This document shows, piece after piece, positions 23,481-28,854 of a stretch of DNA of 64,000 nt; position 1 is the first letter of the stretch, and each line of letters begins with the position of its first letter. The translations under genes and the position numbers were made by a program. Source of the stretch: an uncultured Mycoplasmatota bacterium (GTDB taxonomy: Bacteria; Bacillota_I; Bacilli_A; RF39; UBA660); the NCBI GenBank assembly GCA_947056845.1, contig CAMSCJ010000006.1, forward strand, positions 1-64,000. The letters are read 5' to 3'. Under the pieces are notes generated by a model. That model was not told the DNA's origin. It searched no databases and saw nothing but the letters and a program-made list of their open reading frames with translations.

Positions 23481-24977
23481 TTACTTATTATTGGTTAATG
23501 TCAAAATTTTACCACATGATTCTTTCCCTTCTGGACAAAATCCATGCGTTTCACATTTTGGACCAATATTTTTACTAAATATTTCAGCACCAGGAATATT
23601 TCTAATTTCTTGATGTAAATGATGAGCCATTTCTCGTGTTTCCCATTGTGTTTTATTGCATTCTCTTAGACTTAAGATATGCGCTAATGTTTTGCCGTCC
23701 ATATTTGTAACAACGTTAACCATGTTTCCCGATAATGTGAAGTAGATTAAATCTTCTTCTCTAATTCCATAATTATTTTTAAAATGTTCATACATTTCGA
23801 TATTTTTTCTAAAGATATTGTTATATTCATTTAAATAATTATTTTTAATTTTAGGTGGAACTTTATATTGCGTTAAATCAACAACTGGAACAAAATCGGG
23901 AACCATAATATGTTGTGTTCTGTGTCTTGTTAGGTGTGTTAAGACGGCAAAAGAGATAGGAATTTGATATTCAAAATTAATTTGTGTTAATTCTAATTGG
24001 TCGCTTTCGGTTGCTATTTTTTTTATCATTTCTTCTTTAAAATTTGGATAAGTTTTACACATTTCTTCATATATTTTGATTGTTTTATCATAACTATATT
24101 GATATCTACGCATAATTGCAGCAATAACAATTGCGTCATCAATATTTTTACTATGATTTATTAATAGTGGTTTATCGATTATTTTATAATTAGAATGATT
24201 AATTTTAGACTCTAGATAAGTATCAACAGGGTCTGATAGTTGAACTGGAGTTTTATCGATGGTGTCTATAATATAAGGAATATTCTTTTTAGCTATTTCA
24301 TAAAGCTTTTCACCAAATTCTCTAATTTCACTAATGCGACTATATTTAGTTTTTGTATATTTAATAATCATGTCTTTTAAAGTATGAGCGTCGACACCCA
24401 TTATAATATTAGAGTGATAACTATATGGTAGAACAAACCTAGCATCTTCCTTATCAATACCTTTTTTAGTTAGGTTTTCATATTCTTTAAATAACATTTT
24501 TTCATGTTGTTGATATTTTATTTTGGCTTCATCATTGTTTGAAATTAAATTACCATATTGATCATGAAAATTAGGTATGTAATATCCAACGTTTGAAAAA
24601 TCAACTTCTCTTCTAGATTTAACTGTAAAAGATGAGAATCTTTCTTCAATGGCTGTTTGCTCAATAATTGCCGATATATTTTTAAGAGCGAAGACACAAT
24701 AATCATGATCAGTTATGGAATCGTGTCCCATCGTGATAACTTTTTTTATAAAATTAACATTTTGTTCAAAAGTGCGATTTTCTGTTTTAAAAAGTCGCTC
24801 GAAAACATCACCTGGAAATCTTGATAAACCTCCAGCTGTTGCCACTACACCAGAACGTCTTTCTTTTTCTAGATTATTTATATAATTAATAATTTCGTTA
24901 TAGTCATGAATATGTTTTTCTTTTAAATATTTTTTTAATTTATTATAATCAATTGCGCCTAATAATTCTACTTCCAT
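23481..24977 (-). CDS. thyX: Tandemly duplicated ThyX-like flavin-dependent thymidylate synthase
   Basis: A 498-residue protein, about twice the length of a normal ThyX. The first unit (about 40-235) has GHDSITDHDYCVFALKN, EERFSSFTVKSRREVDF (111-127) and ARFVLPYSYHSN. The second (about 325-495) has LTHLTRHRTQHIMVP (RHR at 351-353) and LRECNKTQWETREMAHHL. The canonical RHRxxS...SxRY signature is divided: the first unit keeps the Ser part, the second keeps RHR. A Cys cluster (CETHGFCPEGKESC) ends the protein. The family makes dTMP from dUMP using methylene-THF, FAD and NADPH; whether this copy does so is inferred. Confidence 0.8.
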   Translation of the reverse strand: MEVELLGAIDYNKLKKYLKEKHIHDYNEIINYINNLEKERRSGVVATAGGLSRFPGDVFERLFKTENRTFEQNVNFIKKVITMGHDSITDHDYCVFALKNISAIIEQTAIEERFSSFTVKSRREVDFSNVGYYIPNFHDQYGNLISNNDEAKIKYQQHEKMLFKEYENLTKKGIDKEDARFVLPYSYHSNIIMGVDAHTLKDMIIKYTKTKYSRISEIREFGEKLYEIAKKNIPYIIDTIDKTPVQLSDPVDTYLESKINHSNYKIIDKPLLINHSKNIDDAIVIAAIMRRYQYSYDKTIKIYEEMCKTYPNFKEEMIKKIATESDQLELTQINFEYQIPISFAVLTHLTRHRTQHIMVPDFVPVVDLTQYKVPPKIKNNYLNEYNNIFRKNIEMYEHFKNNYGIREEDLIYFTLSGNMVNVVTNMDGKTLAHILSLRECNKTQWETREMAHHLHQEIRNIPGAEIFSKNIGPKCETHGFCPEGKESCGKILTLTNNK

Positions 24978-26221: not shown

Positions 26222-26884
26222 ATGGATATCATAAGTGATTTAAAAATAGATATTAATAAAGAAATATATCAAACAGCTTTTACACATACATCGTATGCGA
26301 ATGAACATCGTGTTAAAAGTTACGAAAGACTTGAGTATTTAGGGGATGCTGTTTTAGAACTTATTATGAGTGAGTATTTATACTTGAATACCGAAGAAGA
26401 AGAAGGACAAATGACAAAACTTAGGGCTCATTATGTCTGTGAAAATGCATTATATGAATATTCACTTAAGTTAGGCTTAAATGAATACTTACTACTTGGT
26501 AAGGGCGAAAGTGAAAATGGTGGCAAGGTAAGAAAAGCCATTGTTGCGGATATTTTTGAGGCTTTTACTGGTGCATTATTTTTAGATAAGGGAATTGAAA
26601 CAGTTAAAAAATTTATATATAAATATATAATTCCTATAATAGAAAATAAAGAAATTGATTTTTTTGATGACTATAAATCCGTATTACAAGAATTGGTTCA
26701 AACCGATAAAAGAAGTTTAGAATATAGTGTTGTTGATGAAGAAGGCCCTGCTCATAACAAAACATTTACAGTTGTTGTAAAAATTGATGATGTTACTTAT
26801 GGCAAAGGAGTAGCTCACAGTAAAAAAGAAGCGGAACAAATGGCTGCTAAAGATGCATTAAGTAGGTGTCAATATAAATGTTAG
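26222..26884 (+). CDS. rnc: Ribonuclease III
   Basis: A 220-residue endonuclease that cleaves double-stranded RNA in rRNA maturation. The catalytic signature ERLEYLGDAVLELIMSEYL is near residues 36-54 and the second acidic site is VADIFEAFTGALFLD (about 107-121). The C-terminal dsRNA-binding domain runs from DYKSVLQELVQ to SKKEAEQMAAKDAL. The length is normal. It overlaps the downstream large gene by 7 bp. Confidence 0.97.
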   Translation: MDIISDLKIDINKEIYQTAFTHTSYANEHRVKSYERLEYLGDAVLELIMSEYLYLNTEEEEGQMTKLRAHYVCENALYEYSLKLGLNEYLLLGKGESENGGKVRKAIVADIFEAFTGALFLDKGIETVKKFIYKYIIPIIENKEIDFFDDYKSVLQELVQTDKRSLEYSVVDEEGPAHNKTFTVVVKIDDVTYGKGVAHSKKEAEQMAAKDALSRCQYKC

Positions 26885-28854
26885 GTAATAACTATATTAA
26901 TAATTTATTAGCATCTGATATTGATAATTTATTAGATGAAATTAATAGTTTGTCAAAAGAGAAAAAGAAGTTAGTTTTATCTAATGAAAAAGTAAAAAAT
27001 CGAATTATTAATTCTTATTATTATTTATTTGCTAACTTTGTTGAATCATTAGATAAAGAATTATTAGATATATTTTTAGATAAGCAAGGAATAGATTTGT
27101 TAGTTAATTCGAATGAGTTTTATTCAAAAATAAATGCTTTAATAAATTTGGAAAATGAAATGACTAATGATATTTTAACAGACGATAAAATTCTAAAGCA
27201 AATATATGAACATTATGATGAAAGTAATTTTTGCCCTAAAAATATTTTCTTTGTTCAAAAATTTTTTGATTATTTAATTGCTAATAATTTAGGTTTAGGT
27301 GCAATATCTTATTGGGGTGATAATTTAGCTGAAATTTTAAAAAGACAAGAAAATATTGATAAAATTATTCAAAATAAGAGTATTGATATTGATGATTTAG
27401 ATTTATATGATACTAAAATTATTGAAGTTATGTTAGAAAATTCCTATTTTAAAAATCTTATTTTAGATGATAAATATGATATAAGTAAATTAATTTTTAA
27501 GGGTGTTAGCTTTAGTGAAGAAGTTTTGAGTGACAAAAGATTTATAGAAAAACTAGTTAATGAAGGAGATATTAGAAAGTATCGTTTTATGATGGATTCA
27601 TTATATAAAAATAATAATTTATTATATTTATCAGATATAAAAAATAAACGAAACGTTTATTATGATAACATCATAAATAGTTATGACAAAGATTTAGGAA
27701 TGTTTAAAGAATATGCTGATATTTTTAATTCTTTAGTGGTTGATGGTAAACTTGTTGATCAACAAATATTTTTTGACTTAGATTTAGAGGCTAACTTGGA
27801 TGATGAGCTTTGTTATGATATTAATGCGGCATTTTTTAATAGAAAACTAGATGTTTTTGATAAAATTACTGCGTTAAAATTAGCTTTTATGAAATCGACA
27901 TGTTTAAAATTTAAAGAAATTTTGGTTGATAGATATTATGAAGATATTATTTATAATTTTAAATTAGATTTAGAAAACCTAATTAAATTTAATAATGAAC
28001 AAAAAGTTATTAATGATCAAAATATGGAACATTATTTAAGATTATTAAAAATATTGAATAGTGATAGTATAGTTGATATTGATTTTTATAATAGTTTTGA
28101 TAGGAACAAAAATTATATAGAAGAATATTATGATGATTTTTATGCCTCTAGACAAAAATCGTATAGCTTAATTAATAATAGTTTGGTAAATATCGAAAAT
28201 ATAAAAAATCAAAAAAATAAAGAATTATCTTCTTTATATGGAACGGATATTTATGAGTTTAATGGTGAACCATTTTATTTATTAATTCATGATACTTCCG
28301 TAGTAAAGTCAAATGTACAAAATATTGATGGTATTTTTGAAAATCCTAAATGGGATAGTACTTCAATGAGCCTTATCAGCAATTTAAAAATGAACTTTTT
28401 TCATGATTCTAGTGATATGCTTGTTGTGGGCTTTAATAATCTTGATGTTGATAGGGTTGTTCATATTTATAATATGGATTCCAATTCATATTATAATAAG
28501 GAAAGTGGTATTGCTACTAGGAAATTAAATAAGTTATATACTCCCGCTAGTTTGATTGAAGACACTCGTGGTTATAATGAAATCATTTATCAGATTAAAT
28601 GTAATAATTCAAAGTATTTATCTAAAACTTTAGAACCTAGTTATGTTGTTGCATTTGATAAAGTAACACCTATTGATATTGAATTTTCTAAAAAATTTCA
28701 TATTCCAATTATTAAAATTAATATGGAGAAATATAAAAATCATGAAAATTATAAATGTGAGACTAGTGAAAATTTTGACTTGTTGGACTTGTATAGTGAT
28801 AAATATGTAGCATCATATTATGAATTAATAGATAAAATAGATAAAAAAAGATAA
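26878..28854 (+). CDS. Large hypothetical protein with a possible ADP-ribosyltransferase-like C-terminal domain
   Basis: A 658-residue protein. The first 420 residues are helical, Asn/Asp/Lys-rich and unrecognised. The last 190 are better ordered: GEPFYLLIHDTS (about 461-472), a DSTSMSLIS segment, VVGFNNLD, YTPASLIEDTRGYNEIIYQI and EPSYVVAFDKVTP. His in LLIHD, the STSMS patch and Glu in GYNEIIYQ appear in the order of an H-S-E type ADP-ribosyltransferase fold. That is a weak pattern match. No signal peptide or membrane segment. Translationally coupled to rnc, but a functional link is unproven. Confidence 0.6.
   Translation: MLGNNYINNLLASDIDNLLDEINSLSKEKKKLVLSNEKVKNRIINSYYYLFANFVESLDKELLDIFLDKQGIDLLVNSNEFYSKINALINLENEMTNDILTDDKILKQIYEHYDESNFCPKNIFFVQKFFDYLIANNLGLGAISYWGDNLAEILKRQENIDKIIQNKSIDIDDLDLYDTKIIEVMLENSYFKNLILDDKYDISKLIFKGVSFSEEVLSDKRFIEKLVNEGDIRKYRFMMDSLYKNNNLLYLSDIKNKRNVYYDNIINSYDKDLGMFKEYADIFNSLVVDGKLVDQQIFFDLDLEANLDDELCYDINAAFFNRKLDVFDKITALKLAFMKSTCLKFKEILVDRYYEDIIYNFKLDLENLIKFNNEQKVINDQNMEHYLRLLKILNSDSIVDIDFYNSFDRNKNYIEEYYDDFYASRQKSYSLINNSLVNIENIKNQKNKELSSLYGTDIYEFNGEPFYLLIHDTSVVKSNVQNIDGIFENPKWDSTSMSLISNLKMNFFHDSSDMLVVGFNNLDVDRVVHIYNMDSNSYYNKESGIATRKLNKLYTPASLIEDTRGYNEIIYQIKCNNSKYLSKTLEPSYVVAFDKVTPIDIEFSKKFHIPIIKINMEKYKNHENYKCETSENFDLLDLYSDKYVASYYELIDKIDKKR

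Follow-up and report, generated by a model that had tools for sequence, protein, structure and literature searches.

How can a ThyX-like protein work when the residues that build its active site are shared out between two halves of a single chain? This question is raised by an open reading frame on the reverse strand (23481-24977; 498 residues counted from the ATG) of the window analysed here, a stretch of 64,000 nucleotides from an uncultured Mycoplasmatota bacterium of the gut. The first-pass annotation of this DNA had read the product as two units resembling flavin-dependent thymidylate synthase (ThyX, FDTS) in one polypeptide, and profile searches and structure prediction bear this out. 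The single open frame carries two matches to PF02511 (Thy1), of 93.2 and 70.1 bits against a curated cut-off of 24.8, and the protein scores 115.6 bits with the NCBIfam thyX equivalog TIGR02170, above its cut-off of 87.9. An AlphaFold2 monomer, made with an 80-row alignment, has a pLDDT of 94.9 and a pTM of 0.90, and both halves of this predicted model adopt the fold of a ThyX subunit: by VIA-align, residues 1-247 superpose on 4kas_A (Z 14.6, 195 residues, 2.6 A) and residues 266-476 on 4gtf (Z 13.5, 191 residues, 2.2 A), in both cases along almost the full length of the subunit. Weak fold matches to 7xge_G (Z 2.6) and 6s5t_A (Z 2.3) were disregarded. In the alignment used here the halves share 17% identity, and BLASTP of one against the other reaches only E 0.034, so that it is the HMM and fold matches that show them to be related. 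The features of the gene are as follows, with counts from 87 related proteins (the 500-type) and equivalent positions in the enzymes of Thermotoga maritima (Tm) and Mycobacterium tuberculosis (Mtb).

23481-24977, reverse strand: double ThyX gene, 498 residues, probable thymidylate synthase (HMM matches and predicted fold).
24237-24977, reverse strand: half 1 (residues 1-247), predicted ThyX fold (Z 14.6), with the dUMP-phosphate S-x-R and a His-x-Ser loop.
24717-24725, reverse strand: H85-D-S87, equivalent of Tm H53-x-T55 (Mtb S71); H in 87/87, then S in 83, T in 3 and A in 1 of 87.
24609-24650, reverse strand: residues 110-123, degenerate RHR position (E-E-R) and intact S-x-R (S121 and R123, each 87/87).
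24438-24440, reverse strand: R180, equivalent of Tm R147 (87/87).
23550-24182, reverse strand: half 2 (residues 266-476), predicted ThyX fold (Z 13.5), putative FAD-gripping half.
23919-23927, reverse strand: R351-H352-R353, intact RHR (R 87, H 86 with Q in 1, R 87 of 87).
23664-23666, reverse strand: R438, equivalent of Tm R174 and Mtb R199 (87/87).
23484-23555, reverse strand: C-terminal tail with C475, C481 and C488 (each 87/87).

A cysteine tail resembling the last of these is also present in one single-unit ThyX (L003). Elsewhere in the window, the open reading frame at 26878-28854 (658 residues) has no Pfam match at E 0.001.

The division of the active site is best read against solved ThyX structures. 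Passages of PMC6514825 describe a site assembled from several subunits: in Mtb numbering, subunit A gives R95-H96-R97 and R199, subunit B gives S71 and R190, and subunit C gives R87, S105, R107 and Y108. By alignment, the role A residues R95, H96, R97 and R199 all map to half 2 of the window protein, and S71, S105 and R107, which are what is retained of roles B and C, map to half 1. In Tm numbering, half 1 has His53, Ser88, Arg90 and Arg147 and has lost Arg78-His79 and Arg174, whereas half 2 has Arg78-His79-Arg80 and Arg174 and has lost His53, Ser88, Arg90 and Arg147. The first unit had been described at first pass as keeping the serine-arginine motif with E-E-R in place of RHR. Residues 111-123 do read EER-FSSFTVK-SRR with S121 and R123 intact, but all 87 proteins retain R113, the last Arg of the RHR position, in this half; half 1 is therefore short of two, not three, RHR residues, and Mtb R97 is found in both halves. 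The companion description of the second unit is accurate as it stood, since RHR is present at residues 351-353 and S-x-R at canonical spacing is absent from half 2. Three further Mtb residues, R190, R87 and Y108, are not reliably retained by either half of the 500-type. The position of the lid Tyr (Y108) is E in 77/87 and Y in 2/87, that of R190 is R in only 30/87 first and 34/87 second halves, and that of R87 is R in 0/12 of either half in an aligned subset. The protein thus resembles canonical ThyX (T. maritima TM0449, M. tuberculosis ThyX) in the fold of each half and in holding most catalytic residues once per chain, and differs from it in having two units per chain, RHR and S-x-R in separate halves and a lid Tyr that is mostly Glu. 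Because RHR...S-x-R-Y is not found within either single half, we class it as a divergent double ThyX, not a canonical one.

The same partition was found in every relative of this type. The 87 non-identical proteins comprise those of the window's order, loci of Bacilli and Clostridia genomes (the best 80 of 359 relatives, from which the partial locus L072 was omitted) and one scaffold labelled as faecal 'phage'; 11 of the 98 proteins collected were dropped as identical or nested copies. All 87 show the split, one of them with RQR instead of RHR. In half 1, the equivalents of H53, S88, R90 and R147 are each present in 87, while R occurs at the R78 position in none and H at the H79 position in one. 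Half 2 is the mirror image: R78, R80 and R174 in 87 and H79 in 86, S at the S88 position in only 3 and R at the R90 position in none, with S-x-R at canonical spacing in 0/87. Since the 80 loci were fetched with patterns that included KS[RG]R (half 1) or L[TK]H[LYF]TR (half 2), the selection itself accounts in part for the full conservation of those letters. The 18 proteins of this type and the 32 of a second, shorter type from the order were instead found by the family HMM and not by letter patterns, and the split is present in 18/18 of the former, which include one RQR.

The shorter type consists of open reading frames of about 400 residues in 31 genomes of the order, two of them in one genome (G018). 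Most score a single Thy1 match although the full reading shows them to be double, so that domain counting can mislead here. All 32 are split. S-x-R stands in half 1 of each, with Y (29) or F (3) as the next residue. Half 2 has RHR in 32/32 and R174 in 31, the remaining C-terminal half being cut by the contig end; judged by eye, half 2 is without its N-terminal part. A third type was located by a search with a Bacillus plasmid protein. Its eight examined members come from Bacillus (2), Paenibacillus (2), Parabacteroides, Euzebya, Miltoncostaea and a Tunturiibacter phage; that of Bacillus halotolerans was left out of the alignment. The seven aligned proteins are all split, with substitutions: S-x-R-Y stands in half 1 and R78-H79 and R174 in half 2 of 7/7, the His53 position is Asp in 3/7, and the half-2 motif of the Bacillus and Paenibacillus proteins is R-H-N-R. 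Four third-type loci (L112, L114, L169 and L170) each sit close to DUF2997 and/or helicase genes, on plasmids of Bacillus or Paenibacillus that measure about 200 kb and may be phage-plasmids.

Single-unit ThyX proteins have both motifs in one chain, in 8/8 aligned and in seven more (L116-L122). An exception is a ThyX-like frame of 303 residues (L027 in G061), which has S-T-R-Y, reads ELNR at the RHR position and comes from a genome with a double ThyX of the 400-residue type as well. Only single-unit ThyX was found in four genomes of the order (G005, G060, G069, G078). A sample of the phylum gave Thy1 matches in 15/392 genomes, six of them in the window's own family; among the other nine, the seven loci examined are the single-unit proteins L116-L122 with both motifs, and the remaining two are L123 (a 260-residue frame) and L126 (a 625-residue frame, below the cut-off). 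The idea of specialised halves, raised at first pass, is strongly supported by this survey, as three divergent types place the same residues in the same half, in agreement with the subunit roles described in passages of PMC6514825. As judged from these alignments, the putative division of labour is shared by many bacteria that are only distantly related, and the partition looks fixed, not decayed.

Does the double protein make thymidylate? The first-pass annotation had staked its reading in part on the rest of the genome, and HMM searches returned no thyA and no second thyX there (1.67 Mb, 38 contigs), although at a completeness of 90.27% this is no proof of absence. A fold without a ThyX pocket, the other part of the refutation named at first pass, is not what the prediction shows, as each half is modelled with the ThyX fold. 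Across 146 sampled genomes of the order, double ThyX was found in 49, ThyA in 63 and both in one (G088), a near-exclusion with a Fisher p of 1e-14, uncorrected for kinship. Neither a ThyA nor a Thy1 match was found in 33, of which 14 have thymidine kinase. DHFR, which is needed to recycle folate for ThyA, occurs in 47/63 genomes with thyA and in 1/83 without it; the one is the window's own genome, where the gene (L172:2500-3027, G000:C23) lies among frames that by eye resemble two dTMP kinases and an HD-domain protein. This genome also has a thymidine kinase, so that thymidine salvage is possible.

The Clostridia give a comparable picture. Twenty-five genomes (completeness unstated) have fetched loci with Clostridia or Clostridium in the title. 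Of these, 25/25 have two Thy1 matches, both inside the double gene, and no others, and intact thyA was found in 0/25. The lone thyA match (G522:C57:10762-11316) carries six stop codons and reads as a remnant, as if displaced. DHFR matches occur in 7/25 of these genomes, six of them above the cut-off, and in two (G528:C15 and G533:C16) the DHFR gene directly adjoins the double thyX on the same strand. The near-exclusion with thyA and the lack of an intact thyA in Clostridia lead to the simplest reading, in which the double ThyX is very probably the thymidylate synthase of the window's genome.

We consider it quite probable that two ThyX subunits, fused and subfunctionalised, make up this protein, that it is a flavin-dependent thymidylate synthase, and that it acts as a dimer of fusions with two full and two empty sites. 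Half 2 would take the role of subunit A, its RHR gripping FAD and its Arg equivalent to Mtb R199 touching dUMP. Half 1 would take the two other roles, with S-x-R holding dUMP as in subunit C and the His-x-Ser loop standing for subunit B. Two chains would then form a pseudo-tetramer, and with half 2 at A and half 1 at B and C the symmetry of the tetramer would leave two sites with their parts and two empty. The smaller number of sites proposed at first pass would thus follow from geometry, at two per dimer of fusions; activity and dimer formation are likewise expected on this reading. Several observations fit this reading poorly. The lid Tyr, Mtb R190 and Mtb R87 are reliably retained in neither half of the 500-type, the third type shows Asp for His53 in 3/7 and R-H-N-R in its Bacillus and Paenibacillus members, RHR loss extends to the single-unit L027 of G061, G088 has thyA together with double ThyX, and the window's genome has its thymidine kinase.

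Other readings explain parts of the data. If E-E-R and K-S-R-R were substitutes and not losses, all four site positions of a working enzyme could be usable. Half 1 is indeed strongly constrained near the RHR position, since the R80 equivalent and K120 are each fixed in 87 proteins and E106-Q107 in 87 and 86. However, the R78 position of half 1 is free to vary (A, G, E, S, K or D), no residue is fixed at the S88 and R90 positions of half 2, and R147 and R174 are likewise divided between the halves, which makes four usable sites an unlikely outcome. A ThyX-like protein with another role, and not a thymidylate synthase, is suggested by the PDB titles of 3ge9 and 3fnn, which name an atypical Corynebacterium glutamicum ThyX not required for thymidylate; the mostly missing lid Tyr and the thymidine kinase and DHFR of the window's genome point the same way. 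Against this stand the near-exclusion with thyA in the 146 genomes, the 25/25 Clostridia without intact thyA and the retention, once per chain, of most dUMP and FAD contacts given in passages of PMC6514825, so that we regard another role as improbable, even more so than four usable sites. Drift in a duplicate that is no longer needed would account for the lost motifs, and the thymidine kinase of the genome would fit this, but the frames are open in the relatives examined and the residues are fixed in 87/87 across Bacilli and Clostridia. This conservation contradicts a decaying duplicate, to which we give almost no credence; for the window gene itself, decay or frameshift was rejected on account of the open frame and fixed residues. 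A second ThyX or a ThyA doing the work was also rejected, as none was found in the window's genome at 90.27% completeness. A viral origin was rejected too: a scan of viral contigs with a 16-row alignment gave no relative. Two records named 'Bacteriophage sp.' span most of the query, one being of the double type (L113) and the other a single ThyX of 252 residues (L171).

The fused, subfunctionalised enzyme that we prefer also raises the question of how often the duplication arose. After removal of the motif columns, a maximum-likelihood tree with a midpoint root was built from 68 rows, which took in 12 of the 87 proteins of the 500-type, 11 of the 32 of the 400-residue type and 7 of the 8 of the third type. 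The second halves, 30 in all, form one group (support 96/98), and the 30 first halves fall to one side of a weakly supported branch (78/26), together with one mycobacteriophage ThyX; both halves of the Tunturi_5 protein are long branches. Holding all first halves together was not rejected (p 0.35), nor was a separate duplication of the 500-type (p 0.14) or of the third type (p 0.096). As the constraint tests reject neither arrangement, a single duplication behind all types is favoured only, on the evidence of the tree. A wider scenario, to which we give a little less than an even chance, would derive every double ThyX from one ancient tandem duplication and lead to obligate, complementary halves, the N-terminal one for dUMP and the C-terminal one for FAD, in a covalent pseudo-heterotetramer of which two sites are full and two emptied; the protein would have repeatedly displaced ThyA in Bacilli and Clostridia, and the emptied sites may perhaps have been freed for other use.

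Duplication of ThyX as such is known. Valas and Bourne (2009; PMC3224940) mention duplicated, uncharacterised ThyX in Chloroflexi other than Dehalococcoides, with two ThyX domains in one chain as in the window protein; the relevant passages are silent on how catalytic residues are divided. Long proteins of plasmids and a phage, named FAD-dependent thymidylate synthase in public annotation, have two halves with the same partition as the window protein. Third-type examples are those of Parabacteroides distasonis (WP_009276148.1), Euzebya pacifica (WP_164711104.1), Bacillus licheniformis (WP_080623771.1) and Tunturiibacter phage Tunturi_5 (XOB77493.1). The P. distasonis protein is about 20% identical per half to the window protein, and the plasmid and phage proteins retain the lid Tyr, unlike the window type, and have lost His53 in 3/7. 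Chlamydia trachomatis has a two-domain ThyX of about 529 residues. Passages of PMC3498832 describe the cloning of C. trachomatis ThyX and its use in an assay of ThyX activity. According to a table in PMC4913046, FolA is present and ThyA absent in C. trachomatis, as in the window's genome, but Tdk is absent, unlike in the window's genome. A passage of PMC10733785 reports that metamonad ThyX branches within Clostridia. No description of a divided ThyX active site was found in the literature searched (open-licence papers, mostly at listing level); among these sources, PMC3224940 is the one that mentions the duplication, and the residue partition is apparently undescribed.

For the ThyX family, the double proteins are a natural dissection of the active site, which shows which residues must come from which neighbour, and a clean case of duplicated homomer subunits becoming mutually dependent. 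They also show that counting domains may lead annotation astray. ThyX has been studied as an antibacterial target, and three subunits contribute to its site. The double form lends itself to testing with a single mutation in each half. The two-domain ThyX of C. trachomatis could turn the divided site into a known biochemical case.
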